Assembly: GCA_015061665.1 (NCBI GenBank)
Contig: SUWC01000014.1
Coordinates: 1-51,654, forward strand
Direction of reading: 5' to 3'
Source: Lentisphaerota bacterium
Lineage (GTDB): Bacteria; Verrucomicrobiota; Kiritimatiellia; RFP12; UBA1067
DNA: 51,654 nucleotides
Shown one piece after another: positions 30,855 through 51,654 of this stretch. The position numbers were made by a program, and so were the translations under genes. The notes below the pieces were generated by a model. The model was not told where the DNA came from and did no database searches. It saw only the letters and a list, made by a program, of their open reading frames with translations. The number at the start of each line of letters is the position of its first letter. The first letter of the stretch is position 1.

Positions 30855-30889
30855 TTCTTTACTCCTCTCACGTTGATTATCTTCTTTCC

Positions 30890-34599: not shown

Positions 34600-35030
34600 T
34601 TATCTATGAATTCGCATGAATGCACTCTGGGCAGTTCCGTCGCCGGGGGTGACGGCGAAGGTCATCTTGCCGGGATAATAACGCCGGTAAGGCCTTTACA
34701 AAGCGCAAAAGCGCCTTTGCCGATGCCCTTCACGCCGTCCGGAATCGTCACTTCCGCAAGTCCGCCGCAGGCGGCGAAAGCCAGGTCTCCTATGTCCGTC
34801 ACGGGAACGGGACTGTCCCCGAGTTTCGAGGGAACGGTGATCGCTCCTGACGTGGACGTGGGTATCGCGGCCTTGTACGACGGGTCGAATACCGCAGCGC
34901 TTCCTGCATTCAGGACGTACGACCACTCGATTCCGTCGACAACCTGGGTATAGGCGCACGCCCTGATTGCCGGCAACGCCGCAGCGGCAGCTGCGGCCAG
35001 TTGAAGCACTGCCCATTTCACGCGGTTCAT
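34600..35030 (-). pseudogene. Broken BspA-like LRR gene with out-of-frame C-terminal module
   Basis: The gene starts at 35030 in an ATGA overlap with the gspE stop. It encodes a signal peptide (MNRVKWAVLQLAAAAAAALP) and about two LRR_5 repeats (AFAACGGLAEVTIPDGVKGI), then stops at 34662. Immediately across that stop, in another frame, the DNA encodes GKMTFAVTPGDGTAQSAF then MRIHR and a stop at 34600. This is almost the C-terminal end of the intact LRR protein at 30890-32089. The simplest reading is an internal deletion that joined the LRR part to the C-terminal module out of frame. The 122-residue product could still be exported. Confidence 0.8.
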
Positions 35031-36862
35031 GTGTTTTTCACCTCCTCGTCGTCGGATATCGAAGTTAGCGAGATGGATTCCATTTCGGCGATCGACGTGA
35101 GTCCGGAGCAGATCATTTCGACGCCGTTCTGCATCATCGGCCTGTAGCCGTGCGCCATGGCGACTTCGACAAGCTGGCGGGAGCTCATTCCCTTTTCGAT
35201 GGCCTTTACGAGCATCGGACTTGACGGCGCCATTTCCATTACTGCGATTCGCCCGTCGAACCCCGACCAATTGCAGTACGCACATCTCGAAGGCTCGTAT
35301 ACCGTCGACATCTCAACGAGGAAACGATCTCTGTATTCAGTAAAGCGGCTGGCATTCACTTTCCGCTCCAGGTCTTCGCCTGTGAGCTGGTTTGTCTTCC
35401 CGCACCGGCTACAGAGCCGGCGAACTAAACGCTGGGCCTGCGTCATGCGCAGGGTCGACCCTATGAGGAACGGCGAAATGCCAAGGTCCTTTAGGCGGTC
35501 GATCGCGCCAAGGGCGTCATTTGTGTGCAGCGTGGCTAGGATCAAGTGTCCAGTAAGCGCAGCCTGGACGGCTATCTGCGCCGTCTCAGGGTCGCGGATT
35601 TCGCCGACCAGAATGATGTCGGGGTCCTGGCGCAGGAGTGCTCGGAGCATCTTAGCGAAAGTCACGCCTGCGGCGTCGTTCGTCTGCGTCTGGTTCGCAC
35701 CCGGAATCGTGTATTCGATAGGGTCTTCGATTGTCGCTATGTTCTTCTTGTCACCGAAAACGTCGTCGGAAAGAAGGTGCATCAGCGCGACGTTGAGTGT
35801 AGAAGTTTTACCTGATCCGGTCGGGCCAGTAACAAGGACTATTCCATCGCGGGTTCCCAGCGCTTCCTCGAACTGGCGCCGAAGTTTGGCGTCCCAGATC
35901 GTTCCTGCGAGGCCTGCCTTGGCGAGCTTTTTCAGCCGTCCTGGATCAAGAAGTCGCATGACCATCTTCTGTCCAAACGCGACAGGAATCGTCGAGATAC
36001 GGACGTCTACAAGCCTCTCTACGCCGCTGTCGGTGTAGGATATGCGGACGCTGCCGTCCAACGGTTTGCGGCGCTCTGATATGTCCATACGGCTCTGCGC
36101 CTTAACCCACGTCACAATCTGGACGAGATCGGCTATCGGGACGCGCCGCTGCAGAATCTCGAGGATGCCGTTAACGCGCAGGCGGATTCGGCCCACGCCG
36201 TTGTCCATCGGCTCAATGTGAATATCTGAGGCTCCTCGGTTCAGCGCCTCGCGGAACCAGGCCCTGGCCTGCATGATGACGCCGGTCTCGCCTGGCTGGA
36301 CATCCACGGAAAGCGGCTTAGCGACTTCCGCTTCATCGATGCCTTCGCCCCTAATCTCAATGCGGTAGTAAATGAAGTCGATGACTCGGTTCACGACGGA
36401 GGAATCGACGCGAACCAGCCGCACGGAGACGGGGCGCAATATCTTGTCGGCCAAAACGGCGACGAGATTGCGGTATACGTCGCTTGGCATGTACGGCGTG
36501 GCCGCAAGGGATGCATTGCGCTCGTTTATGAGTACGTACAGCGTTTCGGCACCGGAATCGTCTCCGTCGGACGCAACGCCTAGCGGTATAAATCCACAAC
36601 GCGTCATCACAGAAACGGACTCGTTGTCGGTTTTGTTGAAGTCCGTCATGAAGCCGTAGTCGACGACGGCCTTAAGAAGTTCGTCGCCGTTCGCCCCGGG
36701 CGCGACAGACGGATTCCCTTGCCGCTCCTTCTTAAGATCGACATGGTTGAACATCTCGGCGTTTATCGCACCGTTCATGACCTTGATCTTTGTAATTCGG
36801 AAAACACCGGATTTAGCGGCGGTTTCACGGGGCACCCCCCATCCTCCTGTCCATGCGCACAT
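35027..36862 (-). CDS. gspE: GspE/PilB-type secretion ATPase
   Basis: A 611-residue cytoplasmic motor ATPase. The N-terminal domain (about 1-230) resembles the GspE/PilB N-terminal region that docks to the inner-membrane platform. The catalytic domain has Walker A VTGPTGSGKTS with K352, Walker B DIILVGEIRD, the His box LATLHTNDALGAIDRL, and a tetracysteine zinc motif (LCSRCGKTN and CAYCNWSG) typical of the GspE/PilB class and absent from PilT. The start at 36862 overlaps the previous stop as TGATG and has AAAGGAGG upstream, a strong site. It would power pseudopilus assembly. It is the last machine gene before the exported proteins. Confidence 0.92.
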   Translation of the reverse strand: MCAWTGGWGVPRETAAKSGVFRITKIKVMNGAINAEMFNHVDLKKERQGNPSVAPGANGDELLKAVVDYGFMTDFNKTDNESVSVMTRCGFIPLGVASDGDDSGAETLYVLINERNASLAATPYMPSDVYRNLVAVLADKILRPVSVRLVRVDSSVVNRVIDFIYYRIEIRGEGIDEAEVAKPLSVDVQPGETGVIMQARAWFREALNRGASDIHIEPMDNGVGRIRLRVNGILEILQRRVPIADLVQIVTWVKAQSRMDISERRKPLDGSVRISYTDSGVERLVDVRISTIPVAFGQKMVMRLLDPGRLKKLAKAGLAGTIWDAKLRRQFEEALGTRDGIVLVTGPTGSGKTSTLNVALMHLLSDDVFGDKKNIATIEDPIEYTIPGANQTQTNDAAGVTFAKMLRALLRQDPDIILVGEIRDPETAQIAVQAALTGHLILATLHTNDALGAIDRLKDLGISPFLIGSTLRMTQAQRLVRRLCSRCGKTNQLTGEDLERKVNASRFTEYRDRFLVEMSTVYEPSRCAYCNWSGFDGRIAVMEMAPSSPMLVKAIEKGMSSRQLVEVAMAHGYRPMMQNGVEMICSGLTSIAEMESISLTSISDDEEVKNT

Positions 36863-37629
36863 CAGCGGCCTCCTTTCTCGCCAATGACAATACAGAGAAT
36901 CGTCGCTACCACATGGCGTTTCTCGTCGAGCATCTTGAACAACACGCCATCCGGTGGCAGAAACGAATCGAGCATCAGCCAAACACCGGTCGAAAACAAG
37001 AAAGCGTCACGCGGGACATACCTTCGTGATCCCCGCAGAAGGCTTTCGCCGTCTATGCGAGTGAACGCAGGAAACCTGACGAATCCCATCGGGCTGTCCT
37101 CCTCGGCGTTATCGACGACCCTGAACCACGCAGCCCGCTCGCCTACAAAGAGCAGTTCGTATCCGCAAAGCTCATCCGAAGGCGCAATAACAAACCCTTC
37201 TTCAAGGGGGCGCTCAAGGCACGACAGGAACACATACCCCTTCTTGCCCGTCGCAGGATCAGCCGGCGTACACGAAGAGACTGGAACCGCCCAGATCTTG
37301 CGCACCAACTTCTCTTCCTCCACGAACGCAATCTCGGCAACAACGCGCGGCGGCTGCGAGATCAAGATATCAGGACGTCCATCTGCCCACCGCGCGAATT
37401 CCTCCAACACCAGTCTGTATTTCTCCCAGTCGACGGCCTTTACGGACGGACTGCTGGCGTTGCCAGCGGGTGATGGCGAAAACCAGCCTGCAACCGTTTT
37501 CCTTGCCGGAAAGCTATACAACATCGTTGCCTCGCCGATCTGCTCTACTGCGAACGGAACGAGCAGCACAACGAGCGCGAGCATTGCGGCGACGAACGCG
37601 CCATTCTTCGTAATGTCCTTGAACTGCAT
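36862..37629 (-). CDS. GspC/PilP-like inner-membrane protein, short paralog
   Basis: A 255-residue protein with one N-terminal TM helix (VAAMLALVVLLVPFAVEQIG) followed by EATMLYSFPARK. This N-terminus is nearly the same as that of the 38908-39936 protein on the other side of gspF. The periplasmic part keeps WAVPVSSC, GFVIAPSDELCGYELLFVGE, AAWFRVVD, FTRID and the end LCIVIGEK, but it lacks about 90 residues of the long paralog. The beta-rich segment (PLEEGFVIAP...GYELLFVGERAAWF) is reminiscent of GspC homology region/PilP domains that connect the platform to the secretin, by position and pattern only. ATG at 37629 lies 2 bp after the gspF stop. A TTG at 37635 is an alternative start. Confidence 0.75.
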   Translation of the reverse strand: MQFKDITKNGAFVAAMLALVVLLVPFAVEQIGEATMLYSFPARKTVAGWFSPSPAGNASSPSVKAVDWEKYRLVLEEFARWADGRPDILISQPPRVVAEIAFVEEEKLVRKIWAVPVSSCTPADPATGKKGYVFLSCLERPLEEGFVIAPSDELCGYELLFVGERAAWFRVVDNAEEDSPMGFVRFPAFTRIDGESLLRGSRRYVPRDAFLFSTGVWLMLDSFLPPDGVLFKMLDEKRHVVATILCIVIGEKGGR

Positions 37630-37631
37630 TC

Positions 37632-38906: not shown

Positions 38907-38907
38907 T

Positions 38908-39936
38908 CTACTTCTCTCTTACGATGACACACAGAAGTTCTCTCACGGGGCGCATCGCCGAATCAAGCAGGCGAAACACTACAGCCCTTCCAGCGAGGAA
39001 ATCGTCGACCATGAGATACGTCTCTGAACTTGGAAGCTTTATGGCGTCGCCTGGCCAAAAGCAACGGCTCTTTCCGAAGATGAGCCGCCCCGGCGGGGGC
39101 GTGGGAGCCATTGTGTCCACACGCGAGAAATCGGGCCAAATACTTTGAGGCAACTCGTTCTGCGGTGGTTCCGCGCCGTAGAACGCCTCGAACCAGACGC
39201 AGTAGTCGCTGATGCTGAGAACGCGGTATCCGCATTTGTCCTCACCGGGAGAGATTACGGCCCCCTCGGGCAGCCCCTTGTCCATACCGGGGAAGAACAC
39301 CGCCGATTCGTAGCGGCCTTTCATGGCCGAGCGGCAGCTTGCAACGGGGACAAGCCACATGCGGCGAAGCTTCACGTCGTAGTAGACGGGCGGAAGTCCT
39401 TCGTACGACAGGCCGATCTTGCCTTCGCCGCGAACTCCATCGACCGTAACGAGAAACCCCTTCTCGCCGCCTCCAAGCGACTTCACGGAACCGATCCTCC
39501 CGGACACCTTGTCCTCTGGTTCGCATATTAGGGTCAGTTTGTTGCCAACCTGGGCTGCACTGAGGTCCAGCTTGTCCGTGAGAAGCTGGAGCTTCCAGGA
39601 AAAGCGAGACTCCGTTGCGGGGTTTGCATCGGCCCTGACTATCTGGAACACATCGGGCCTGACGATGGAGATTTTGATTTCGGGGCGTCCGTCAACCCAT
39701 TCGGAGAACGCCTGAAGATCCTTCAGCTGGCGCTCCCAGTCGACTTTAGCAGGCGCCTTCGACGCTTCTTGGCCATTGTCGGACGAAAAGAGTCCCTTGA
39801 CCCATTTCGTCGCTGGAAAACTGTACAGCATCGTCGCTTCGCCCACCTGTTCGATCGCGAACGGAACGAGCAGCACGACAAGCACGAGCATCGCAATGAC
39901 GAGGACGCCGCTTTTCTTAAGATCGCCAAAAGTCAT
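38908..39936 (-). CDS. GspC/PilP-like inner-membrane protein, long paralog
   Basis: A 342-residue protein with N-terminal TM helix (VIAMLVLVVLLVPFAIEQVG) and EATMLYSFPATK. The periplasmic part starts near residue 75 (WVDGRPEIKISIVRPDVFQI). It contains SGRIGSVKSLGGGEKGFLVT, WLVPVASCRSA, GAVISPGEDKCGYRVLSISD and YCVWFEAFYGAEPP, ending LLCVIVREK. From DVFQIVR to the end it is homologous to the C-terminal domain of the Sel1 protein at 26470-28692, and it is a fuller version of the short paralog after gspF. By position and TM topology it is likely the link between platform and secretin, as GspC or PilP. That is an inference and the domain may be new. It overlaps its upstream neighbour as ATGA. Confidence 0.78.
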   Translation of the reverse strand: MTFGDLKKSGVLVIAMLVLVVLLVPFAIEQVGEATMLYSFPATKWVKGLFSSDNGQEASKAPAKVDWERQLKDLQAFSEWVDGRPEIKISIVRPDVFQIVRADANPATESRFSWKLQLLTDKLDLSAAQVGNKLTLICEPEDKVSGRIGSVKSLGGGEKGFLVTVDGVRGEGKIGLSYEGLPPVYYDVKLRRMWLVPVASCRSAMKGRYESAVFFPGMDKGLPEGAVISPGEDKCGYRVLSISDYCVWFEAFYGAEPPQNELPQSIWPDFSRVDTMAPTPPPGRLIFGKSRCFWPGDAIKLPSSETYLMVDDFLAGRAVVFRLLDSAMRPVRELLCVIVREK

Positions 39937-41453
39937 TCCTTGTCCTCCACTCCGTTTTTATCACCATCCACCTGCACGGGCGTTACATTTTTCACGGGAA
40001 GAAGTCCCTCAAGCACGGCTCCTGCCACTTCGCCGTCGGGCGCGAAATCAATCTTCGCCGATTCAAGTGCATATCCTGGTCCAAGCTCGAGCGCGCGCCT
40101 TGCGCAGTCCGCAACCTTGGCGAGCGAAAGCCTTTCCTGTGATGGATTCCCTGCATCGGAGCGCATTTTATCGACATCCCTTTCAACTCTGGCACCAAGG
40201 TAGAGCGTCCATCGCACCCATGTGAACTCGAACCGATCCCCGCCCTTCACAAGAACGGACGGCTCGCAAGGCTCCAATTCTCGGAACGTCGCCTTGGCGC
40301 GCGTGATTCCGGCGGCGGCAGCAACTCGGTCATGCAAATCCGCCACGACGAGAGGCTCGTTGAACACATCTTTGCGGTCATACGCCTCGATGAGCGGCTC
40401 GAGTCTTCTTTTGCAATCTTCGCGACGCTTGTCGAGGAACGTTTTGAAACGTTTAACGCCGTCCGAAACTTCACTCAGCGCAATAGTGCGTGACTTTAGA
40501 TACGAGTTGTCCAGCTCCCGGAAACGCTGCCATGGGAGTCTCGCATCGCCGACCTTGTCCCAGACTGCCCTAAGCCCACGTCGTCTTTTGACGTCGCTGT
40601 CAGGAAGCGTCTTGCCCGCCGCCATAGCGTCATTCTCCAATACCTTGTCAACAGCATCGAACCATCCTGGAATGTTGATGGCCACCTTGTAGTCCGGCAA
40701 TTTCCTCTTGTCGACCTTCAGCTGCAGATCGACGTATTTCGTCATAAGCGACTGCGCGGTATTCGGCGGCGCTGCAGGGCCCTCGTCTTTCGATATCTTT
40801 GCCGTCTGCACCTTTTCGCGCAACTTCTTGATTTCGCCCACGCAGTCCGAGAGCGATTTCTCCTTCGCAGGAAACTTCATGGAGTCTGCAAGGAAAAATC
40901 TCGCTGAGATGTCGAGTTCGTCTACCCAGACGAGATGCTCCTTTTTTATTCCCTGCAAATCGACTTTGTTGCCTACGACATCCACCGCCGACGTTATTGT
41001 GCAGGAGACTTCCGCCGCGATATTAGTCGCCTGCGCGGCTTTGTCGCCGGGGCGGAATACATATACGCCGTCTAGCCTGCACTCCCCCCCCGTATTGAGG
41101 ACCCAACGGAGAGGACGGAACCCCTTCCCGGGTCGCCGCGAATCGGGCAAAGCCATTGCGTTGAGGAAGTTCGTCGGATGATTGTCGACCCACACAAGTC
41201 GCACGTAGCGGTCCATCACGAAATACTCCTTTTCCGCCTCGCTCCATGCTGCGTCCATCTCCTCTATTGGACGGGTCACGGCTTCGTATTCCGCCAGGCG
41301 CATGTTTAGCGTTGGCGAATTGTATATTCTGAAACCATCGTACACCTCCCACACGGCGACAGCTATGGCCGCAATGAGAAGCATCCGAAGACAGAACTTT
41401 CGCCTGCTTCGCCAAGCGTACTGACGCGATGTAAAATCAATACTGTATGCCAT
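39933..41453 (-). CDS. PilN/GspL-like membrane protein with large periplasmic part
   Basis: A 506-residue protein. The start at 41453 (MAYSIDFTSRQYAWRSRRKF) is chosen because it lies one base after the previous stop, and the longer frame overlaps that gene. A short cytoplasmic tail is followed by one TM helix (LRMLLIAAIAVAVWEVY, about 21-37). A long periplasmic region follows with helical segments (EMDAAWSEAEKEYFVMDRYV, IKKLREKVQTAKISKDEGPA). The N-tail, TM and coiled region recall PilN or the C-terminal half of GspL, and it follows a PilM/GspL-like gene. The length is more than twice that of PilN. A run of eight G (41085-41092, minus strand) lies in the coding frame near residue 121. Placement as an assembly-platform component is inferred from context. 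Confidence 0.65.
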   Translation of the reverse strand: MAYSIDFTSRQYAWRSRRKFCLRMLLIAAIAVAVWEVYDGFRIYNSPTLNMRLAEYEAVTRPIEEMDAAWSEAEKEYFVMDRYVRLVWVDNHPTNFLNAMALPDSRRPGKGFRPLRWVLNTGGECRLDGVYVFRPGDKAAQATNIAAEVSCTITSAVDVVGNKVDLQGIKKEHLVWVDELDISARFFLADSMKFPAKEKSLSDCVGEIKKLREKVQTAKISKDEGPAAPPNTAQSLMTKYVDLQLKVDKRKLPDYKVAINIPGWFDAVDKVLENDAMAAGKTLPDSDVKRRRGLRAVWDKVGDARLPWQRFRELDNSYLKSRTIALSEVSDGVKRFKTFLDKRREDCKRRLEPLIEAYDRKDVFNEPLVVADLHDRVAAAAGITRAKATFRELEPCEPSVLVKGGDRFEFTWVRWTLYLGARVERDVDKMRSDAGNPSQERLSLAKVADCARRALELGPGYALESAKIDFAPDGEVAGAVLEGLLPVKNVTPVQVDGDKNGVEDKE

Positions 41454-41454
41454 G

Positions 41455-42396
41455 TCAGCAACCTCCCTGAAGCGCCATGCCGAAGGCGATAGGCGCAATG
41501 TCGCGATTGGACAGTATGGGGCCAGCGACAGCCTCTGTCATATCTATCTTGTCGATCGCGTTTTCATCCCAAAGGTCCCAGTGCTCGAACGAGCTCACGT
41601 GCGTTTCCTTCACGGCGACGACGAGAGGATCAATCGTCCTGTCCTGCACAACGGCTGGATGCTGGCGTGTAAAGTAGTCAATCCACCCCTGCATGCGCGC
41701 AGCAATCACATCCGGGGACGCATCGTCGCCATCCATACGCGGAAGCAGCACCTCGTCAATGTACTTCCAGTCGTCCATTAAGACCGCACGGTAGACGCTG
41801 CGTCCCTTCAGAAGCACAAGCCTGAACGGATTAGCTCTGCGCTTCTCAGCGGGATACAGCGCGAGATATGCGTTTGCAAGGGCAAGTGCGGTGGAGGCTA
41901 TGTGGGGACGGCTTATGCCCATCGTCGAGTACCAATAACGGTAGTCACGATTCACCGACTCCTTGATCGCACCCGCGCCGACATTGTGCTCCGCAGGAAC
42001 GACTCTGCCGCCGTCTATCTCCTCTCCCTTCATGCAAAGACCGCCGATGACAACTGTATCTTTGACGAACCTGCTCTTTATCTGTGTGACGAAATAATCG
42101 GACTTGCCGCTTTTCGTGGCAAACTCCCCTGCTGGCATTTCGATGGTGCGCGTCGTCTCTACCTGAAGCCCGCCCTGTTCACTCGGAGACGCCCAGAAAT
42201 GACGGGCCCCAGTCAGCTTAGAGAGTTTTTCCGCAAACATCGGATCGCCAAGTTCGCCGTCAAGCGACCAGCCGATGGACAACTTTCCGCCCTTGCCGGC
42301 GGAAAGCCCAAGCGCCAGGCACTTCGAGCCCTGGACGCCGCAACCCACTACATGTCCCCTGGGTCGAAAATCGCAAGTTCTAGTTAATATTTTCAT
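41455..42396 (-). CDS. Putative PilM/GspL-like cytoplasmic assembly protein
   Basis: A 313-residue soluble protein. The start at 42396 overlaps the end of the first PilT gene by 17 bp and has AAGGAG upstream. It opens MKILTRTCDFRPRGHVVGCG then QGSKCLALGLSAGKGGKLSI, a pattern compatible with the first strand-loop-strand of an actin-like ATPase domain. Later FRLVLLKGRSVYRAVLMDDW and NRDIAPIAFGMAL are also consistent with a PilM/GspL fold. Residue-level motifs are weak, so the assignment rests mainly on its place directly before the PilN-like gene, as in pilM-pilN and gspL-gspM pairs. It could equally be an unrelated system-specific protein. Confidence 0.5.
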   Translation of the reverse strand: MKILTRTCDFRPRGHVVGCGVQGSKCLALGLSAGKGGKLSIGWSLDGELGDPMFAEKLSKLTGARHFWASPSEQGGLQVETTRTIEMPAGEFATKSGKSDYFVTQIKSRFVKDTVVIGGLCMKGEEIDGGRVVPAEHNVGAGAIKESVNRDYRYWYSTMGISRPHIASTALALANAYLALYPAEKRRANPFRLVLLKGRSVYRAVLMDDWKYIDEVLLPRMDGDDASPDVIAARMQGWIDYFTRQHPAVVQDRTIDPLVVAVKETHVSSFEHWDLWDENAIDKIDMTEAVAGPILSNRDIAPIAFGMALQGGC

Positions 42397-43489
42397 GCTT
42401 GGCCTTCTCCTTCTGCTCGAATTTGGCCGTACGTATCGCAAGCTTCAGGTCTGTCGGCCTGTTGCTGAACGACACTGCGTCCTCTTCGGTTATGTCGCCG
42501 CGCAGCCATGCGTCGTACAGCGACTGGTTCTTTGAGATCATCCCGTGCGCAGCGCCGTCCCTTATGGCGTCGTCTATGCGGGCGATCTCGCCTTTCTTGA
42601 TGAGTTCGGAAATAAACGAAGTGTTTACGAGCACTTCCTGTATGCAAACGCGGCCTTGCCCGCTCGCCTTGCGCACAAGGCTCTGACTGACGATTCCGCG
42701 AAGCGTCACGGAAAGCTTGAGCCGTATCTGAAGCTGCTCTTCTGGCGGGAACGTGTTGACAATGCGGTCTACGCTCTGCTTCGCGTCGTTCGTGTGCAAC
42801 GTCGATAAAACTAGATGCCCGGTCTCGGCTGCCTGCGTGGCGATCTTCATCGTCTCGGCGTCTCGCATTTCTCCGACAAGAATGACATCTGGGTCCTGAC
42901 GCAATGCGCGCCTAAGCGCTTCTGCAAAACTAGACGTGTCAATGCCTATCTCTCGCTGGTTTATCAGGCACTTTATGTCGTCGTGGACGAATTCAATCGG
43001 ATCTTCGACCGTAATGATGTGCTTGGATTCAGATTCGTTGATCTCCCTGACCATCGCCGCAAGCGTTGTCGACTTTCCGGATCCAGTCGGGCCAGTGAGC
43101 AGGACAAGCCCCTGCGACTGGTGTGCAAAAGTCTTAAGAGTCGGCGAAAAGCCCAACTCATCGAGCGACTTAACATTTCGCGGAATCTGCCGCATGACGA
43201 TTCCGGGATGCCCCATCCGCATGAATATGTTGACGCGGTAGCGGTCGGGCTGAACTTCTGGCTTATACGAAAGATCAAGTTCGTTCTCGTTCTCGAACCG
43301 GGCGACGAGTTTCGGACCCATCATCTCTGAAATGAGGGCGCGCACCGCCTCGTCGGTCAGAACCGCTTCGTCATCGAATTCGGCAAGTAGTCCGTCAACA
43401 CGCGAAATAGGCCGTCTCCCGACCTTGATGTGCAGGTCGGACGAACGCCTTTCGGTCATTTCAAGAAGAAGTTTGTCTATATGTTTCAT
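42380..43489 (-). CDS. pilT: PilT-like ATPase 1
   Basis: A 369-residue ATPase of the PilT class. The N-terminal PAS-like region starts SSDLHIKVGRRPISRVDG. Walker A is LTGPTGSGKSTTL (K139), Walker B DVILVGEMRD, His box LSTLHTNDAKQSVDRIV. There is no zinc tetracysteine motif, as expected for PilT. The C-terminal box SFISELIKKGEIARIDDAI corresponds to the AIRNLIRE region needed for retraction. PilT proteins retract pili. Here the gene lies inside a secretin/pseudopilin operon, overlaps the second PilT gene as ATGA, and overlaps the PilM/GspL-like gene by 17 bp. Confidence 0.92.
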   Translation of the reverse strand: MKHIDKLLLEMTERRSSDLHIKVGRRPISRVDGLLAEFDDEAVLTDEAVRALISEMMGPKLVARFENENELDLSYKPEVQPDRYRVNIFMRMGHPGIVMRQIPRNVKSLDELGFSPTLKTFAHQSQGLVLLTGPTGSGKSTTLAAMVREINESESKHIITVEDPIEFVHDDIKCLINQREIGIDTSSFAEALRRALRQDPDVILVGEMRDAETMKIATQAAETGHLVLSTLHTNDAKQSVDRIVNTFPPEEQLQIRLKLSVTLRGIVSQSLVRKASGQGRVCIQEVLVNTSFISELIKKGEIARIDDAIRDGAAHGMISKNQSLYDAWLRGDITEEDAVSFSNRPTDLKLAIRTAKFEQKEKAKHENIN

Positions 43490-44682
43490 TTCTTCCCCCA
43501 GCTCATGAATCCTGTTTTTTTCTCAGGAGCGGCAACGGGCGCAGCAGCACCATTCCCCGTTACCTGCTCCACATGCTTCGTCGCCACTGAAGACTGCGCC
43601 GCGATGCCGCCTTTCGTCTTGAGATACTCTTCGAGGATGTGCGGACGGTTGGCCGCCGACATAGCGCATTCAACGTCTATCACACCCTCTAGAACCTTGT
43701 TTGCAAGCGACAGCTCAAGCGGGCACATCCCCTTTGCGATTCCCGTCGCTATTGCACCGGCAAGTTGGTGGGTCTGGTTGTCGCGTATGAGATGCGCAAT
43801 CGCAGGATTGGTTATCATAATCTCCCGTGCGGCGACGCGACCCTTCCCGCCGATCTTGGGGAGGAGCGTCTGGCAGACCACAGCGGCAAGCACGCCGCCT
43901 AGCTGAGTCCTCACCATTGCCTGCTGCTGCGGCGGGAACACGTCGATCACACGATCCACCGTCTGGGGCGCGTCAGTAGTATGGAGCGTCGCAAAGACAA
44001 GGTGCCCTGTTTCCGCAGCAGTAAGCGCAAGCGATATCGTCTCCAGGTCGCGCATTTCGCCGACAAGTATTACATCAGGGTCTTCACGGAGCGCCGAGCG
44101 CAGCGCGTTTGCAAAGGATTTTGTATGCGCGCTCAGCTCGCGCTGGCTGATGACGCATTTCTTCTCCTGGTAGACAAATTCAATTGGGTCTTCGATTGTC
44201 AGGATATGCGATGTATCCCGGGCGTTTATCATGTCCAGCATCGTTGCAAGCGTCGTCGTCTTGCCCGACCCCGTCGGACCCGTGACAAGCACCAGTCCGC
44301 GCGGCAGCTTCGTAAGCTCCTGGATCTGCGTCTCAAGCCCGATCTGCTCCGGAGTCAGAATCTGGTAGGGAATCAGACGGAACACGGCGGCTAGTCCGCG
44401 GTTCTGGCGGAACATGTTGACACGGAAGCGAATCGGATGCGTCGCGAGCCGCATCTCGTACGAGAAGTCGATTTCCCAGTTCTTGTCGATCTCGAGGCGC
44501 TGGTCGTCGCGCAGGATGCTGTAAAGAATTGACTCGCTCTCCTCGGGCGTCACGGTATCGTATTCCTCCATGCGCACGATTTCGCCGTGTATTCGAAGAC
44601 ACGGACGTCTCTGAGGCGCGATGTGGATATCGGACGCTCCACGTTCATCGGCTTGAGCCATTATTTCAAGTAGATCTATCAT
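43486..44682 (-). CDS. PilT-like ATPase 2
   Basis: A 398-residue ATPase. The start at 44682 (MIDLLEIMAQADERGASDIH) overlaps the previous stop as ATGA. Walker A is VTGPTGSGKTTTL (K141), Walker B DVILVGEMRD, His box FATLHTTDAPQTVDRVIDVF. The AIRNLIRE-type box is present as NPAIAHLIRDNQTHQLAGAI. The protein ends in an Ala/Pro-rich tail (GNGAAAPVAAPEKKTGFMSW). It is a close PilT homolog with its own tail, distinct from the first. Two PilT ATPases plus one GspE in one operon suggest that the filament is both extended and retracted (inference). Confidence 0.92.
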   Translation of the reverse strand: MIDLLEIMAQADERGASDIHIAPQRRPCLRIHGEIVRMEEYDTVTPEESESILYSILRDDQRLEIDKNWEIDFSYEMRLATHPIRFRVNMFRQNRGLAAVFRLIPYQILTPEQIGLETQIQELTKLPRGLVLVTGPTGSGKTTTLATMLDMINARDTSHILTIEDPIEFVYQEKKCVISQRELSAHTKSFANALRSALREDPDVILVGEMRDLETISLALTAAETGHLVFATLHTTDAPQTVDRVIDVFPPQQQAMVRTQLGGVLAAVVCQTLLPKIGGKGRVAAREIMITNPAIAHLIRDNQTHQLAGAIATGIAKGMCPLELSLANKVLEGVIDVECAMSAANRPHILEEYLKTKGGIAAQSSVATKHVEQVTGNGAAAPVAAPEKKTGFMSWGKK

Positions 44683-45551
44683 GCCGTAACCTCCATCCAG
44701 ACTATAAAGAATGCAATCTGCAAGAGATAGAAGAAATAGAACAGCCCGGCATACGAAAGCCACCCCAATTTGGTCTTAAGCCCAAGCCAGCAGAACAAAT
44801 AGCCTATTGCCGTCGTAGTCAGCGCAATTCCAGCAAGGCGTAGCATCGTAAAAGCCGAGAGCCTGTATGGAAATAGAATGTAGTGAAGCCTGTCGCCAAC
44901 ATCAAGCCTGTCGATCGACTTCCCGCCCTTTGCGATTTCAACAGTCCTTTTGTATATACCAACGGGCCATGCGAAGCCATGTTCGATTCCAAACCAGAAT
45001 TCTTTCCAGACCTCGACCGCCCATTCAGACATCCCCTTTTCGTGAGTCCTGTTGGGCCACTTCTTCTGTTCCGCATCGACCTGACCCTTTAGGCTCTTCT
45101 GCCATTTCTCATTCCGAAGCGTAGGGGAAATCCCCTCTAGTTCGCTCCTCCACCGCTCTGCCGTCTCGCCAAGGCGATGCATGGCCTGGACCTGATTTAT
45201 CTCCAAGTCAAGTCCGCGGAAATCCTCCCTCTTCGCCGCGAATCGTCTATCCCATCTGCTTGTCGTGCCTATTAGCACCGGGATGTAGCGCGAAACCGCT
45301 TCGGACGCTCCGCCAAGAGACATCATCGTAAGCGTTTCACCGACTTCGTCGCGCATTTTTTCGATGTCCGAGTGTATTCCCTGCGTCCGCATCATGAAGA
45401 AGCATCCAGCAATCGCCGCTACAAGCGCCACGGCATTGGCGATGATGACGATGCGCCAGACGCGCCGACGCTTCGCTCTAGCGAGGTCGGTCGCAGCCAC
45501 ATCGTCGTGTAAGCCGGGCTGCCACGATTTTCTGTCGTATCCGCCCGTCAT
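44679..45551 (-). CDS. Three-TM membrane protein of the secretion operon
   Basis: A 290-residue protein with one TM helix near the N-terminus (WRIVIIANAVALVAAIAGCF, about 32-52), an extracytoplasmic middle part of about 175 residues, and two TM helices at the end (MLRLAGIALTTTAIGYLFCW and SYAGLFYFFYLLQIAFFIVW). I recognise no family. It is coupled on both sides by ATGA overlaps, between a GspK-like pseudopilin and the second PilT gene, so it is probably a dedicated component of the machine. It does not look like GspM, GspN or PilO, which have a single TM. Confidence 0.75.
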   Translation of the reverse strand: MTGGYDRKSWQPGLHDDVAATDLARAKRRRVWRIVIIANAVALVAAIAGCFFMMRTQGIHSDIEKMRDEVGETLTMMSLGGASEAVSRYIPVLIGTTSRWDRRFAAKREDFRGLDLEINQVQAMHRLGETAERWRSELEGISPTLRNEKWQKSLKGQVDAEQKKWPNRTHEKGMSEWAVEVWKEFWFGIEHGFAWPVGIYKRTVEIAKGGKSIDRLDVGDRLHYILFPYRLSAFTMLRLAGIALTTTAIGYLFCWLGLKTKLGWLSYAGLFYFFYLLQIAFFIVWMEVTA

Positions 45552-46903
45552 CGGCTCTTGTTCCTTTCATATTCCAGTTCGTCTCGCCGAAACCCTCTAT
45601 TCTCCGTTCCGTGCGTGTCGTAGGTAAGCACAGTGTAGCTCCTTCCGGAGCGCGAGTACTCTCCAAGTTTCTGCGCAACCGTCGCTCGATTGGTGACATT
45701 GTACGGATGCTCAAGAAAAATATCGCACTGATAGGCTGGCGTAACCTTGAAATCCGTAAAGGAGTCTACGTCAGAAGGCCCCATCTGCGTACCGTTGCGC
45801 GAGCTCGACGCCGCCTCGACCTCGAATACCGCACGCAAATCCGGCGCTATGACCTTGCCATAATCGTTTGTCCATATTCCGTCCGAAAAATACCTGTACG
45901 CGCCTTCTGATATCTGCTCGCAGTCGGAGAACGTGCATCCGCTCGACGTTCCGCCATCGTTGCTTATGTAGAACACGCATATTCTCCTGTCCGCAAGCTG
46001 CATGCCCATTTGGCAGAGCGACGGACGGTTCGTCATGTTCACAAGAAGTCTCTTGGTTACCGACGAGCCGTTGCAGCGGTACTCGTAGATTGACATTTCA
46101 GCATTGTTGTTGTCCGTGCCGGCTGCGTTGCCCACGTCGGAATTAACTATTCCAAACGGGCTTATCTGAAAGACGAGTGCATACTCGCCAGACCTCGAAA
46201 GAGGCCAGCCATGCCTGGCCCCCGCCCTTTCCGACGTATTTGTTGTCTCGCGGACCAGGCACAGGCGAATTATGTCATTGGTAATCCCGCTGACGTAGCC
46301 TCGTGGCAAGAAATAATACCGCCGGCCATAATCCTCCTGAATCCATCCGCCGGTGTCGCGCATACCTATGTTGACCCACCATTTCACCGGACCGTCCGCT
46401 GTGTTCGTCGCTGCAGAATCTGTAAACCGCATGTTCCACAGGCTACCGGACTTTATGTTTTCAACGGGGAACCCCCCGTCCTCAGAATTTGTCCCGTATT
46501 CATAATCGGGACGCGAACAGTATTGGTCTACACCTACATCAATCGAAAACAACCTCTCGTTCGTCCTGCTGTTGCTGATGTCGAGATGCCGCTCATCCGC
46601 GTAATCCGGGAATATCTGATCCACCGGCTTTACCTGGACGCCAAGATCACGTTCGCTACCAGTATAGTACCTGTATGCCTTGCCATTGCCTGTGATCTCG
46701 ACATCCGTCCTTATGCAGTTCAATGCGGACCGCACCGCGTACGTCTTCTCGAGTTCGTGCTGCCGGTCGATGCGAAGCTGGCATTGATAGCGGAAGAGAA
46801 GCAACGCTCCGGCACCGAACAAGAGTCCGATTGCCGTCAGTATAAGCACAGTGACAAGGATGAATCCGCCACGCGCGGATTGCACGTGCCGCATATGTGT
46901 CAT
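45548..46903 (-). CDS. GspK-like pseudopilin
   Basis: A 451-residue prepilin-like protein. The ATG at 46903 overlaps the previous stop as ATGA. The leader MTHMRHVQSARG is followed by GFILVTVLILTAIGLLFGAG, a type III signal with cleavage after the first or second G. The usual glutamate at +5 is replaced by threonine, and that loss of E5 plus the large globular domain are the marks of GspK, the tip pseudopilin of type II systems. The body contains YCSRPDYEYGTNSEDGGFPV and several paired cysteines. It probably caps the pseudopilus. The assignment to GspK is by features, not alignment. Confidence 0.75.
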   Translation of the reverse strand: MTHMRHVQSARGGFILVTVLILTAIGLLFGAGALLLFRYQCQLRIDRQHELEKTYAVRSALNCIRTDVEITGNGKAYRYYTGSERDLGVQVKPVDQIFPDYADERHLDISNSRTNERLFSIDVGVDQYCSRPDYEYGTNSEDGGFPVENIKSGSLWNMRFTDSAATNTADGPVKWWVNIGMRDTGGWIQEDYGRRYYFLPRGYVSGITNDIIRLCLVRETTNTSERAGARHGWPLSRSGEYALVFQISPFGIVNSDVGNAAGTDNNNAEMSIYEYRCNGSSVTKRLLVNMTNRPSLCQMGMQLADRRICVFYISNDGGTSSGCTFSDCEQISEGAYRYFSDGIWTNDYGKVIAPDLRAVFEVEAASSSRNGTQMGPSDVDSFTDFKVTPAYQCDIFLEHPYNVTNRATVAQKLGEYSRSGRSYTVLTYDTHGTENRGFRRDELEYERNKSR

Positions 46904-47523
46904 TTCCAATTCCACAGACGCACCACCCTTCCTGCCGTTGCCGTCTTCCATTCATATTCGCCATCTTCGCCCTTTACGCGATAACGCGCCTCAACCTCCA
47001 GATATCCGAGCGCCGCGTCCGACGTCTGCCCGCCGTCTTCTTCCCAAATGCTGCCGTTGAGAGGAACTATAGTGCAACGAGTCAAGTCGCCCGCCAGCGG
47101 CAAAAGCGCCGCGTTTCCGTTCGCGACGCGCGAAACCTTGCGAACAAGCTCGCCGCCCTCGAATCCTTCAATGTCAATGTTTACCGTATGGTTCGTAGGA
47201 TGGACAAACGACTCGAGTCTGGCTACACGTGTGACAAGTCCAGTCTCTAGCGAAACACCGCCCGTCTCCCATCTGTAGGCCACGGACGAAACCCCGCCGC
47301 TTGCGGAAAAAGACGAGCCTATGGACATGAAATCCGCGAAGGCTGCGCACACATCGGAAAGCTTCTCGCGAACGTATGCGTCTTCACGTTCGCGCTCCTG
47401 TATGCCGAGAAGCTTCACGAAAAGAACGCCAACGGACGCGGCAACGATGGCGACAATAGTAGTTGTCGCCATCAGTTCCACGAACGTGTAGCCTTTTCTA
47501 GCTTTGGGCATACATCTCTCCAT
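46900..47523 (-). CDS. Minor pseudopilin (GspH/I/J class)
   Basis: A 207-residue prepilin. The leader MERCMPKARKG precedes YTFVELMATTTIVAIVAASV, with E at +5 after the cleaved glycine. The globular part contains MSIGSSFSASGGVSSVAYRW and ends in a beta-rich segment (YEWKTATAGRVVRLWNWK). The start at 47523 has AAAGGGAG eight bases upstream. A second ATG at 47511 follows GGAGAG and would give a shorter leader (MPKARKG), so the exact start is open. The stop overlaps the GspK-like gene. It would join the pseudopilus tip complex. Confidence 0.82.
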   Translation of the reverse strand: MERCMPKARKGYTFVELMATTTIVAIVAASVGVLFVKLLGIQEREREDAYVREKLSDVCAAFADFMSIGSSFSASGGVSSVAYRWETGGVSLETGLVTRVARLESFVHPTNHTVNIDIEGFEGGELVRKVSRVANGNAALLPLAGDLTRCTIVPLNGSIWEEDGGQTSDAALGYLEVEARYRVKGEDGEYEWKTATAGRVVRLWNWK

Positions 47524-47528
47524 GATGT

Positions 47529-48062
47529 CTACTCCCTTTCAATCTTCCAAAGGCATACCGGCAAAGAGAAGAACTGTCGTCCCGCATCGGCTAGATTGCC
47601 GTTCCCCTCGTACAGCCGACCGACAAGCCAGTTGTTGTTTGGCCATTTTAGAAACCTGCTCGCGTTAGGAAGGTCTTTTTTAGCCATAACGCAAAGCTGG
47701 TATCCAATCGGCGAAACATCGCCGTCGAAGACTTTGTAAACTGTGCCTAAATCTCCCGATTCGAATGCTACCCTGTTGATGTTCCTTTCCATTTTCATCC
47801 GATACACGCCCGCACCAGGATTGACGTTCCTGTATTCATGCATAAAGGCGTCCATCATGCCGACCAAGCGCTCAACCGCCTCGCGGCGGCGGGCCTCCTT
47901 GCGGGCGGATTGGATGCCTATTATTTCCAGCCACGCAAGGCAGACAAAGGTCAGAATCAGCATCGAAACAAGAAGTTCCACAAGTGTAACGCCGCATCTG
48001 GCACGGAATTTGCCATCCCGTTCAGCAGCTGCGAACACATTGTGGAGCTTCTTTCCGGCCAT
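47529..48062 (-). CDS. Minor pseudopilin (GspI/J/PilV class)
   Basis: A 177-residue prepilin with a long, positively charged leader (MAGKKLHNVFAAAERDGKFR, then ARCG). The mature N-terminus is VTLVELLVSMLILTFVCLAW with E at +5. The globular part is about 120 residues (MMDAFMHEYRNVNPGAGVYR, RFLKWPNNNWLVGRLYEG). It starts 4 bp after the secretin stop with a GGAGGAA site, and is followed after 5 bp by the next pseudopilin. No GspG-type major pseudopilin with its DPWG end is found in the operon within this window. Confidence 0.82.
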   Translation of the reverse strand: MAGKKLHNVFAAAERDGKFRARCGVTLVELLVSMLILTFVCLAWLEIIGIQSARKEARRREAVERLVGMMDAFMHEYRNVNPGAGVYRMKMERNINRVAFESGDLGTVYKVFDGDVSPIGYQLCVMAKKDLPNASRFLKWPNNNWLVGRLYEGNGNLADAGRQFFSLPVCLWKIERE

Positions 48063-48066
48063 TCAG

Positions 48067-50373
48067 CTATTCCTCCGTTACAGGCTTCACCTCTGTGACC
48101 GCCCCCTCTTCTGAGGGCGCGGCAGATTCTTCTTCCGAAGGGACTTCCCCTTCATCGTCTTCTTCAAAGGGCTTTACGGCGCGTTCACGATACAGGTCCG
48201 TGATGAAACCCTTCGTATCCTTGAGGGAATACGGACCTCCGATGGGTGTCGCCTTGAGGTCGCGTCCCGAATTAGCAGAGACGGATTCCATCTCGCTTAG
48301 CGCATTTTCCTCAAAGCCGGTGAGGTCTTCGTCTTCGAGTATCGTCGGTCGAATCATGACAATGAGATTCCGCTGCCTCATTTTTGTCGTCTTGCTTCTG
48401 AAGAACCAGCCAAGCAAAGGTATGTCGCCAAGCCAACGGACCTTCGTCTCGACCACTTCCTCGGAATTGTCGATGAGTCCGCCGAACATCAATGTCGCGC
48501 CGCTGGGAACCGTGGCACGCGTATCCATCTCGTGCATCTTCAAGGGATAGTTGAAATACTCCGTCCCCTCGAAGTTGAATGTGACCGCAGGCTGCTTTGT
48601 CACGACCTGGGGATGCACGGTCAGCCTGACAGACGAACCCTTCTCTGTGATTTCCGGCGACACCCACATGAGAATGCCACTTCTTATCATTAGCCATTCA
48701 AGGCTCATGGTATCGCGCCCGCCGGCAGTTGTAGTCGTGTAGTTGCTCTCGGGATCGGGAACGGGATCGACCTGCGATACCTGGATAGCAGCCTCGCTGT
48801 GGTCACCTACGACTATGACCGGGCTGGACAAAAGCTTCGAGTTGTTCCGCTCGCGGATCAACTGGATTACCGTGCTGAAATCCAATCCCTCAGTCCGCAT
48901 CCACACCTGCCCGCCGTCACGGATCTTGAATCCCGTCGCGGCTGCTGTCGCCGCGCCTGCGATCGATCCATACAAAGGCACAAACTTCTCGAACCCGGAC
49001 CATTGAATTCCGTCAATGTCTCCATCTCCGTCTGCATCATTGTCGGTATCCAGCTCGAATATGATCGCCTCGATCAGGATCTGTTTTTCCTTGATGTCGA
49101 AAAGCTTGATCTTTTCCTCGATGTTGGCGATGTTTTCCTCAACGTCGTAGGCAATAATGGCGGGGACCGTACGCGGCCTGACAAGCTTGTCGAAAACCTG
49201 CGAGGTCGTATCGCTCATGCCGGACTGGCTGCCGGAACTCGTCTGGATGCGGGCGTTGAGATTCTTGACTATCTCGGTGTTGTCGTCCTTCTTCCGCGTC
49301 GCCTGGAGCGAAGCATTTGGATGCTGCAAAAGGCCCTTTATCTTGAGGACGCGTTCGACAACCGCCTCGGGGTCGGCGTGGTATAGACGAATAACCTTGG
49401 CGGTCAAAGGCTTCTTCGCGACCTCGTCCTGCTCCCACTGCGCAAGCTTTGCGCGCTTGGCTATGCGGACGACTCCACCTACCTCGACAAAGTCGTAGTC
49501 GTGGGGGTTGAGGATTTCGCGGAGCACGATTCGCCATTCGACCTGCTGCCCGTTCGTATCGAACGTCGTGCGCTTGACTTGTGACTGCGAAGCTTTCGCG
49601 TTATCGCTCGCCTTACCCACCTGATCGGCAGTAAGAGCCCCTTCGGCTCCTATTGACTGCGCTGGAACGTACAGATCGCCAGCCTCCATGTAGTCGGTCG
49701 TTATCGTGACGTCCGCCTTGACCGACACGTCGCGTATTGCGCTCCTGAGGTCCATGCCGCCCTCGGTCTCGTTCGTTGTGAAAAGAATCGGCGTGCGGTT
49801 TGCGGCAAGTCGCTCCTGGGCAAGCTGCTTGTGCTTGACGTCAACTTCATCCGAAAGTCCGAAAAGAACAAGCTCGCCGTCTTCCGTGAAGTTGTATCCG
49901 ACAGGCGTGAGCAGCAGCCTAAGCGCCTTTCTCCACTCGACCTCGTAGCTCTTGCCGTCGCCGAGCTGCTGGTAGGGCATGACGAGTTTTTCGACGCCAT
50001 TGGTGCTTACGGTTCCGACCTGCTTTCCAGCCTGGACGAGTATGTTGCGGACAGCCTCCTCAAGGGTCCTTGCAATGTCGGAACTGGGAGGGATGACCAT
50101 GCCTTCGATAGTCAGCGCCTTCACATTGGCCATTTGAGACTTCGACTCGACATGGGCATTGGCCTCTGTGGCGCTCGCAACAAGTGCATCTGCAGAGACC
50201 GAGACCATTTCAGGCTTGGTGCCAAGCTCGACGGGAGCAACAACAACGGCGTTTTCCGCATCATCTTCAAGACCGACTACGTTTATGGTCTTGGGCTCAA
50301 CGGCCTGGGCAAAGAGCATGGTCGCAGACATTGCAACCGCTCCGCATCCGCCTATCATCAGGGACAGTTTCAT
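48067..50373 (-). CDS. gspD: GspD/PilQ-type secretin
   Basis: A 768-residue outer-membrane secretin with signal peptide (MKLSLMIGGCGAVAMSATML). Periplasmic N-domains fill about 80-430, including two stretches of STN/N0-like pattern (VEWRKALRLLLTPVGYNFTE and VEWRIVLREILNPHDYDFVE) and an N1-like segment (TAKVIRLYHADPEAVVERVL). The secretin core is at about 450-690, with KEKQILIEAIIFELDTDNDA and the hallmark GATLMFGGLIDNSEEVVETK followed by WLGDIPLLGWFFRSKT. An acidic DNDADGDGDID insert lies at the start of the core, likely binding calcium. The C-terminal tail is Glu-rich, with no clear S-domain. It starts behind GGAAGG. Confidence 0.93.
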   Translation of the reverse strand: MKLSLMIGGCGAVAMSATMLFAQAVEPKTINVVGLEDDAENAVVVAPVELGTKPEMVSVSADALVASATEANAHVESKSQMANVKALTIEGMVIPPSSDIARTLEEAVRNILVQAGKQVGTVSTNGVEKLVMPYQQLGDGKSYEVEWRKALRLLLTPVGYNFTEDGELVLFGLSDEVDVKHKQLAQERLAANRTPILFTTNETEGGMDLRSAIRDVSVKADVTITTDYMEAGDLYVPAQSIGAEGALTADQVGKASDNAKASQSQVKRTTFDTNGQQVEWRIVLREILNPHDYDFVEVGGVVRIAKRAKLAQWEQDEVAKKPLTAKVIRLYHADPEAVVERVLKIKGLLQHPNASLQATRKKDDNTEIVKNLNARIQTSSGSQSGMSDTTSQVFDKLVRPRTVPAIIAYDVEENIANIEEKIKLFDIKEKQILIEAIIFELDTDNDADGDGDIDGIQWSGFEKFVPLYGSIAGAATAAATGFKIRDGGQVWMRTEGLDFSTVIQLIRERNNSKLLSSPVIVVGDHSEAAIQVSQVDPVPDPESNYTTTTAGGRDTMSLEWLMIRSGILMWVSPEITEKGSSVRLTVHPQVVTKQPAVTFNFEGTEYFNYPLKMHEMDTRATVPSGATLMFGGLIDNSEEVVETKVRWLGDIPLLGWFFRSKTTKMRQRNLIVMIRPTILEDEDLTGFEENALSEMESVSANSGRDLKATPIGGPYSLKDTKGFITDLYRERAVKPFEEDDEGEVPSEEESAAPSEEGAVTEVKPVTEE

Positions 50374-50406
50374 GTTTGTTTCCTTCCTGTTTGTTAATTC
50401 GGATCG

Positions 50407-51654
50407 TTACTTCCAAGTTCCTTCCGCCGAGTTCCAGTGGTAGTACGGCAAAAGCGCAAGTCGGCTAACCTCGAGATAAGCCGCACTGTTCGTGCCAAGC
50501 AGCGAGGCAGCCGCCGACTTCTCGGACTCCGAAACGGCGAAGTCCTTGTTTGTATCCGCCTCGTTGAAGAGCAGTCCCGAGACGAAGAACTCATTGGCAT
50601 TGATGAATGCGGCAGGATTCCAGCGCTTCCAATGGTAGACGCAGACACCTGTGATCTTCACCGCTTCGCCTGGATCAAACACCTCGTCGCGATTTCCTGT
50701 GCGGCGAAGCGCAGCCTTTACCTTCGCCGTCAGTTCTACATAGTCGTATCCGTCCGGCATCGTGCCGGTCGGCGAGTCAATGTAGAACGTCTTGTCTACA
50801 GAAGTCTTCTCCCCTTCGCCTGCCGGTCCTGGCTTAAGCTCGACCCAGTAGCCGTACTCGGGATCTACTTCGCCGTCGCCTTCGTTCTTTACATTGAGTT
50901 CAAGGTCGATTAAGCCTGTGTTCCAATTCAGCTTCCCTGATATCGCCGTCGTGATAAGAGGCGCAACATCGATAACCGTCAAGTCGCCAGGGTCTATTTC
51001 TATCAGATAGTTCTGCGCCTTAGCTCCGTCAAGGCTCGCGACGTCAATCCAGATTTCGTCAGCATAGGGTCCGGCGTCGTCCCGCGTTGGCTCTGATGCG
51101 TTCCACACTGTATTCGTGTAGTCAACGTCCGTCGCAAGTCCGGTTCCGCCCGTTATGTCGGCAACCGTGTCGTCTGCCTGGAGTTGTCCGGAGAAGTCCG
51201 CAAAGCTGTTCGCAGGACGCGGCTTGCCGACTTTCCAGGAAACATTGTTGACCGCAATTGTCAGTGTCGCCTGAGTAACGGTGAGTGTTCCGTTCGAGAA
51301 GGCGATTTCGTAGTTGTTTGTATCAATCCCGGTCACTGGATAGAACGGAACAATTTCTTCTTCGTATTCACCAGCATCAGTTCCGTCGTCAGCGGCCTTC
51401 ACGCTGGATATGTAGACGGACGTCACCTGCTCACCGTTCTGAAGCTCCCCGCTCACAGTAAACTCCGTACCGTCAAATGTCAACACTTCCCCGTATACCT
51501 TTTCCGCGTCGTTAGCGATGATCGTAATCGCGGCTCTAGTTATGTTAAGCAGTCCGTCCACATACGTGATCTCGTAGTTGCCGAGTCCCGTGCCCTGCGC
51601 GTTCGACGCGACGATCGGATAGCCCTCGGCCTTGTACGGAGCCGAGGCAGCAGC
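50407..51654 (-). CDS. Secreted MBG-repeat protein, N-terminus beyond window
   Basis: The open frame runs through the right edge, so only the last 415 residues are seen. MBG-type beta repeats are evident: ITRAAITIIANDAEKVYGEV with NYEIAFSNGTLTVTQA, then ATLTIAVNNVSWKVGKPRPA with NYLIEIDPGDLTVIDV. A preceding partial unit has NYEITYVDGLLNI. Then comes a beta domain (LNWNTGLIDLELNVKNEGDG). The C-terminal 80 residues have an EF-hand-like DTNKDFAVSESE and end YYHWNSAEGTWK. MBG repeats form long surface stalks or adhesins. It is directly upstream of the secretin gene (33 bp), so it is probably an early gene of the operon and a candidate substrate (inference). Total length is unknown. Confidence 0.85.
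   Translation of the reverse strand, partial: AAASAPYKAEGYPIVASNAQGTGLGNYEITYVDGLLNITRAAITIIANDAEKVYGEVLTFDGTEFTVSGELQNGEQVTSVYISSVKAADDGTDAGEYEEEIVPFYPVTGIDTNNYEIAFSNGTLTVTQATLTIAVNNVSWKVGKPRPANSFADFSGQLQADDTVADITGGTGLATDVDYTNTVWNASEPTRDDAGPYADEIWIDVASLDGAKAQNYLIEIDPGDLTVIDVAPLITTAISGKLNWNTGLIDLELNVKNEGDGEVDPEYGYWVELKPGPAGEGEKTSVDKTFYIDSPTGTMPDGYDYVELTAKVKAALRRTGNRDEVFDPGEAVKITGVCVYHWKRWNPAAFINANEFFVSGLLFNEADTNKDFAVSESEKSAAASLLGTNSAAYLEVSRLALLPYYHWNSAEGTWK

Follow-up and report, generated by a model that had tools for sequence, protein, structure and literature searches.

The type II secretion system (T2SS) arose from the type IVa pilus (T4aP) through loss of the retraction motor, PilT being typical of the T4aP and lost in the T2SS, according to the passages cited here (PMC6668835; PMC10191384). 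These passages also give a generic type IV filament model made up of an ATPase, a platform protein and a major pilin, and a final T2SS model in which GspC is mandatory (both PMC6668835); PulL is said there to correspond to a PilM-PilN fusion (PMC10191384), and extension ATPases to be able to retract too (PMC6711533). We analysed a contig of 51,654 nucleotides (SUWC01000014.1, assembly GCA_015061665.1; hereafter, the window) from a Lentisphaerota bacterium, in which an original prediction, made from the sequence alone, had proposed an unusual T2SS- or pilus-like operon with three motor ATPases. The unusual feature of this locus is the presence of two PilTs inside a single T2SS-like operon.

The operon lies where it had been predicted and comprises 13 tightly packed genes on the minus strand (50373-35027), with intergenic gaps of -17 to +5 bp, in the order D-PP1-PP2-K-TM3-T-T-M-N-P-F-P-E (Table 1). 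Pfam and NCBIfam identify the secretin, two prepilins, GspF, GspE (the T2SSF and T2SSE matches being above the Pfam cut-offs) and two PilT-family ATPases, in agreement with the families first proposed for these proteins. Neither database yielded a family for the K-like, three-transmembrane (TM3), M, N, Pa and Pb proteins, nor did relaxed Pfam scans of their copies in relatives give a credible one, and searches of solved structures with M, N, P, K and TM3 returned no credible match (for TM3, the top match in the PDB has an E of only 0.029). TM3 had been announced as a protein without a known family, which is what we find; a simple hydropathy scan detects two transmembrane (TM) segments in the window copy and three in each of two relatives. 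The PilM- and PilN-like names, on the other hand, receive no support from sequence, and topology alone fits them, M having no TM segment and N a single N-terminal one. Two paralogous linkers do flank GspF, as predicted, with 42% identity across a gapped alignment (58% in the first 91 residues and 33% in the C-terminal 157), but the window holds three copies of this family, not two. The start of PilT1 was set at the ATG at 44682, whereas searches with this protein used 44688.

Table 1. Coordinates of the operon and associated features in the window.
Coordinates	Strand	Feature	Evidence or remarks
50407..51654	-	Adhesin-like protein, C-terminal part	MBG_2 repeats, E 2.8e-16; continues past contig end
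48067..50373	-	Secretin, GspD-like	Pfam Secretin, 107.7 bits, E 6.1e-31
47529..48062	-	Prepilin PP1, GspI-like	N_methyl, 24.6 bits; top hhalign match GspI, 30%
46900..47523	-	Prepilin PP2, general pilin-like	N_methyl, 22.9 bits
45548..46903	-	K-like large protein, one N-terminal TM	No Pfam match
44679..45551	-	Three-TM protein (TM3), family unassigned	Recurs in L040 and L125
43486..44682	-	PilT1, PilT-family retraction ATPase	TIGR01420, 435 bits (cut-off 319)
42380..43489	-	PilT2, second PilT-family ATPase	TIGR01420, 432 bits (cut-off 319)
41455..42396	-	M, no TM, PilM position	Conserved in L040, L125 and L132; no family
39933..41453	-	N, bitopic, PilN/GspL position	A single N-terminal TM in each of the three copies
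38908..39936	-	Pa, bitopic linker, full-length	Related proteins in L040 and L125
37632..38906	-	GspF/PilC platform protein	Pfam T2SSF, 138 bits; 49% to L040
36862..37635	-	Pb, shorter linker paralog without the middle domain of Pa	Pa/Pb comparison
35027..36862	-	GspE/PilB assembly ATPase, tetracysteine motif	T2SSE, 346 bits
28767..31130	-	Paralog of 23044..25803, true start probably downstream	58% over 482 aligned columns
26470..28692	-	Signal peptide (by eye), Sel1 repeats and third linker C-terminal domain	Sel1, E 2.6e-119
23044..25803	-	Multi-TM protein (by eye), C-terminus matching the G189 prepilin head	phmmer E 1.4e-11
20751..23012	-	Paralog of 23044..25803 without the pilin-head domain	53% over 691 aligned columns

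With the gspC-O genes of E. coli K-12 as a yardstick, the locus resembles a T2SS in its secretin, tetracysteine assembly ATPase and platform protein, in pilin-type proteins arranged in a possible I-J-K-like order, and in the probable surface or secreted client adjoining it. Unlike a T2SS, the window operon carries two PilTs; GspC, GspL and GspM are not recognisable in it, a GspG family match is lacking, and its gene order departs from the C-D-E-F-G-H-I-J-K-L-M-O of E. coli. Pa and Pb in particular matched no GspC family or profile at the sequence level; a relation at the level of the fold is possible. The T2SS models of NCBIfam are matched below their cut-offs in every case (GspD 151.7 bits, cut-off 351, being the top model for the secretin; GspE 372.7, cut-off 630; GspF 139.6, cut-off 424), and so are those of the T4aP (PilB 368, cut-off 676; PilC 134, cut-off 700; PilQ 98, cut-off 284). 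The likeness to the T4aP resides in a PilT close to solved PilTs, a second PilT-family motor, and separate M and N by topology; unlike in the T4aP, no major-pilin family match was found in the window operon, and M, N and P are unrecognisable by sequence, with no match to PilM, PilN, PilO or PilP and a topology of M, N and P that fits. As for the wider superfamily of type IV filaments, the assembly ATPase and the platform protein are present, together with two prepilins without a subtype match in the window operon. The TadA-family model gives just 42-52 bits for the three ATPases (cut-off 373), so that the locus does not come out as a Tad pilus. Akkermansia, from a related group, has a pilus locus, Amuc_1098-1102, which is a type IV filament locus with a secretin; just 66 residues of the window secretin align with the Amuc_1098 model, with 49.8 bits against a cut-off of 750. 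By current profiles, then, the predicted machine is neither a T2SS nor a T4aP. Titles and abstract openings from an open-access library revealed no report of such a system from Kiritimatiellota, which is not proof that it is undescribed.

All three ATPases retain the residues of the Walker A, Walker B, Asp-box and His-box motifs; the tetracysteine motif occurs in GspE and is absent from both PilTs. The catalytic motifs of the PilTs are intact in all four genomes found to hold the system (see below), and PilT2 has an altered C-terminal LIRE-type motif with the others intact. Against solved structures, PilT1 scores 362 bits with PilT (3jvu) and 218 bits with PilU (9n32), and PilT2 293 and 260 bits, respectively; on these scores, PilT2 is a more distant member of the PilT family than PilT1. 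We considered PilT2 as a true PilU, because it is nearer to PilU than PilT1 is, yet PilT is still its closest match. Since both PilTs keep their catalytic motifs and match solved PilTs well, a retractable-filament machine is plausible; of the proposed mixture, the co-occurrence of T2SS-like and PilT parts is confirmed, and a retractable pseudopilus stays at that level of plausibility. Three motor ATPases in one locus are not an oddity in this group, contrary to what had been suggested, because another locus of the same genome, on contig C36 (L120:8672-13173), contains an assembly-type ATPase, a PilT and an assembly-type ATPase, in an order that recurs in many relatives.

The two PilTs have histories of their own. 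In a mixture-model tree of 33 rows, two of them from the window, the PilT1 sequences of the four holders make up one clade (100/99) that is sister to one PilT of an Armatimonadetes metagenome-assembled genome (MAG; locus L042, VGFD01000001.1) with support of 100/98, and PilT2 of the holders forms another (100/100) that is sister to the adjoining PilT of L042 (99/98). The 33 rows were picked from a quick tree of 108. Excluded from the latter were 11 loci carrying double-domain fusions and rows whose length fell outside 320-420 amino acids (aa), and only 12 of the loci numbered outside L040-L142 were retained in it. A recent duplication in place was rejected in an approximately unbiased (AU) test, with PilT1 and PilT2 as a single clade having a p-AU of 0.00015 and a log-likelihood lower by 61; the split had first been seen in the quick tree, so the group tested was not chosen blind. 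The two PilTs are thus ancient, separate paralogs. Neither groups with the PilT of the C36 pilus locus, and a derivation from it is not supported. Because each PilT clade is sister to one of two neighbouring PilTs of L042, the tandem looks like an old unit, common by descent or transfer to at least one lineage labelled Armatimonadetes. As in the window, L042 carries members of the same two clades, adjacent and in the same order; kinase-type and regulator open reading frames (ORFs), read by eye, lie upstream of the pair, and the contig ends within PilT2. Separately, tandem arrays of three to four PilT genes occur in L048, L050, L051, L061, L068 and L071, the last labelled Bacillota and the other five Armatimonadetes, Armatimonadota or Hebobacteria.

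The phylogeny of GspE is less informative. A quick LG tree (54 rows, with two PilTs as outgroup) groups it (support 92) with sequences that include E. coli GspE and HofB, and a mixture-model tree of 24 rows, from which the remaining rows had been dropped, the long branches L140 (HofB), L122, L163, L117 and L109 among them, places it beside L151 (91/87) on a branch of length 2.62. Placement with the T2SS (p-AU 0.186), with the T4aP (0.541) or with a third group from the class (0.301) was not rejected in any case. We do not claim a T2SS origin for GspE, as the grouping seen in the quick tree is lost in the mixture-model tree and the AU tests decide nothing. The merged lineage that had been suggested is therefore half supported, by the separate history of the PilT pair, with GspE compatible with either parent.

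We found the system in four genomes, all from one class, and the original description of it as specific to the phylum is hence too broad. Besides our own genome, the holders are G405 (L040, CAMNCG010000044.1), G189 (a Kiritimatiellae MAG; L125 is its contig 139, JAQULY010000139.1) and G068 (L132). PilT2 as a query retrieved its clade in 3 of 288 class genomes (E <= 1e-100) and in 2 of 387 phylum genomes (E <= 1e-110). PilT1, run against 58 relatives with the own genome among them, brought in G189 (60% identity, E 9.3e-148), and the 34 other genomes of the same genus gave nothing better than 7.7e-99. GspE recovered three of 345 class genomes at E <= 1e-95 (own genome, G405 and G189), and TM3 detected only its own genome among 145 from the phylum. 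In the large searches, scoring was limited to the best few candidates of each genome, and these absences are soft, because about half of the class genomes are less than 90% complete or more than 5% contaminated.

The gene order recurs in the relatives: D-PP1-PP2-K-TM3-T1-T2 and M-N-P are kept in L040 and L125, and T1-T2-M in L132. M, K, TM3 and P match their counterparts in L040 and L125 at E 2e-7 or better. For TM3, the match in L040 (28%, E 5e-14) is in the same place, while that in L125 (E 6e-8) spans 59 residues only and corresponds to a gene inverted in place. K, with a conserved TYDTHGT motif at its C-terminal end, is likewise conserved in both. N is weakly similar (E 0.001-0.007; 0.006 to L040 and 0.001 to L125), and its conservation rests mainly on position and topology. 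GspE and GspF of the same clades are present in L040, where a single linker separates N from E and E precedes F, unlike in the window, where F sits between two linkers and is followed by E; they are also present on a second contig of G189 (L189). In G189, L125 ends within a linker gene and L189 starts just before E, so the two contigs are likely adjacent. The linker of L125 (L125:2-721) has a cysteine-rich stretch, with many C-x-x-C and C-x-C, in place of the middle domain. New with respect to the original prediction is a two-component pair, a histidine kinase with a response regulator of the NarL type, inside the operon of the three relatives, between PilT2 and M (identified by Pfam in L040 and L125, and read from the sequence in L132); the window has no space for such a pair at this position. 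The locus of G068, T1-T2-HK-RR-M (HK, histidine kinase; RR, response regulator), lies on a contig of 4935 bp that is cut at both ends.

Three pseudopilins had been proposed, of which PP1 and PP2 are confirmed as prepilins and K is not. In hhalign profile comparisons with E. coli proteins, where five non-pilin controls (one of them a stretch of rplD) gave 0-1%, PP2 reached 87% with GspG, 85% with GspJ, 79% with GspH and 51% with GspI, over 29-43 columns, and K was weakly nearest to GspK (19%) and GspJ (16%). PP1-PP2-K would fit a tip complex of the I-J-K type, which is unproven; this assignment is unsure because PP2 scores highest with GspG and because K is its weakest part. The reported absence of a major pilin holds for family searches of the window operon; it does not for the whole system, because L189 encodes, after E and F, a 297-aa protein that is a classic prepilin (N_methyl 21.5 bits, cut-off 21.2), also new here, together with a large protein that seems to have a signal peptide. 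The head domain of this prepilin (residues 40-237) matches the C-terminus of the protein at 23044-25803 in the window; the domain is joined there to a multi-TM protein, and a motif scan of the latter detected no prepilin signal. The filament may have a main subunit, given the G189 prepilin after gspE-gspF and the recurrence of its head in the window. PP2 itself could also be the main subunit. The own genome has 20 N_methyl sites, 18 above the cut-off and two in this operon; one of the sites, on contig C163, belongs to a prepilin that is GspG-like (52.5 bits against GspG of E. coli), so that a subunit supplied in trans is possible.

A co-oriented adhesin-like gene, likewise new here, lies 33 bp upstream of gspD. 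Its C-terminal domain, of about 186 aa, is shared with the gene upstream of gspD in L040 (37%, E 2e-29), and the repeats preceding this domain differ, being MBG_2 in the window and Cna_B in L040. We searched the own genome for the domain as a genome-wide sorting signal; apart from the protein itself there were just two weak matches (E 0.046 and 0.49), neither a clear second copy, and the better one appears unrelated and, by eye, kinase-like.

These families, the intact motifs, the conserved order, the kinase and regulator, the ancient PilTs and the adhesin lead us to read the locus as a divergent type IV filament machine that is linked to an adhesin and has retraction built in, a reading in which we place about as much belief as doubt. 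GspE and GspF would polymerise a short filament, with a GspI-J-K-like tip of PP1-PP2-K and with PP2, a C163-type subunit acting in trans or a G189-type pilin as its main subunit; PilT1 and PilT2 would retract it, and M-N-P would couple the motors to the secretin. The adhesin would be the client, recognised via the shared C-terminal domain, which the filament would push out and might hold or draw back. Several points weigh against this. The top profile score of PP2 is with GspG, a major subunit, and not with GspJ, over 29 columns. Sequence searches give no credible match for M, N, P or TM3, K resembles GspK and GspJ only weakly, and GspE cannot be assigned to the T2SS or to the T4aP from its phylogeny. 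The GspE query did not find GspE in G068 among the class genomes, perhaps because of its 4935-bp contig. The link with the adhesin comes from two genomes, in both of which the contig ends inside the adhesin gene, and its C-terminal domain seems not to be a general secretion signal; retraction, secretion and client are all things that we infer. A stronger version of this reading, namely a distinct subtype of type IV filament machine in which the adhesin has a dedicated secretion device, with an internal pilus retracted by a two-motor cassette under the two-component control seen in relatives, seems distinctly doubtful to us. If true, the adhesin could extend through the secretin and be reeled back, a behaviour described for no T2SS in the passages cited.

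The locus could instead be a divergent T4aP with its major pilin elsewhere, as in G189 after gspF, that is, an ordinary retractable pilus whose T2SS look is due to divergence. The PilTs, typical of T4aP and lost in the T2SS (PMC6668835; PMC10191384), would then be expected, GspE is compatible with PilB of the T4aP, and separate M and N are T4aP-like, given the correspondence of PulL to a PilM-PilN fusion in the passage cited (PMC10191384). However, the top NCBIfam models are those of the T2SS for the secretin, GspF and GspE, by small margins in the case of E (372.7 versus 368.2 bits) and F (139.6 versus 134.4 bits), the window operon shows no major-pilin family match, and the genome has another locus with an assembly ATPase and a PilT, with which neither PilT groups; we regard this explanation as possible, if unlikely. 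That the PilTs, plus the kinase and regulator of relatives, are a passenger cassette in a T2SS-like machine, serving the other pilus of the genome or a regulatory role, is improbable in our view. Their frames overlap those of neighbours in mid-operon, they occupy the same position in the three holders in which both sides are visible (the fourth being consistent), and no relative of GspE without PilTs appeared among the 345 class genomes. A cassette would agree with the separate phylogeny of the pair and with L042, where 11 kb of contig contain no secretin or pilin match and no other match to E. coli gsp or to the window machine, as well as with the six loci with PilT arrays, near which the sole such match is a GspG-like ORF in L051. 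Finally, a patchy and rare distribution and the long branch of GspE might suggest a decaying or silent locus, but all 13 frames are open in the window and PilT motifs are intact in the four holders, which makes this highly improbable.

A T2SS-like operon with two PilTs in overlapping frames could address whether a secretion pilus can retract, what retraction adds, and whether a lost motor can be regained as a cassette; the adhesin-like neighbour is a candidate client to assay. The genome encodes other filament machines, to which this operon adds. We found 10 matches to T2SSE (three in the window), 10 to T2SSF, mostly two per gene (two in the window), and eight to secretins, seven of which pass the cut-off, two being pieces of one gene, with one in the window.

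Homology and nearness of the proteins downstream of gspE indicate that parts of the system probably extend to about 20.7 kb, beyond 35027..51654. The Sel1-repeat protein at 26470-28692, not noticed before, is fused to the third copy of the linker domain (66% to Pa over 247 aa, E 1.7e-118) and might dock on the machine from the periplasm. The three multi-TM paralogs at 20751-23012, 23044-25803 and 28767-31130 have no Pfam match, and all carry a short DPW stretch that is faintly GspG-like. As a GspG-type loop, this stretch amounts to a hint: hhalign gave 42.6% over 23 columns against an alignment of the own GspG with that of E. coli, 9.1% and 4.7% when each GspG was used alone, and less than 1% in every comparison with four minor pilins or with nine other proteins.

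The otherwise different proteins at 33802-34578 and 32086-33204 share A-L-[QH]-V-V-Y-x-K-A directly after an apparent signal peptide; no third convincing copy of V-V-Y-x-K-A was found in the DNA searched. Adjoining the operon, 30890-32272 and 34662-35285 encode BspA-type leucine-rich-repeat proteins, possibly exposed on the cell surface.

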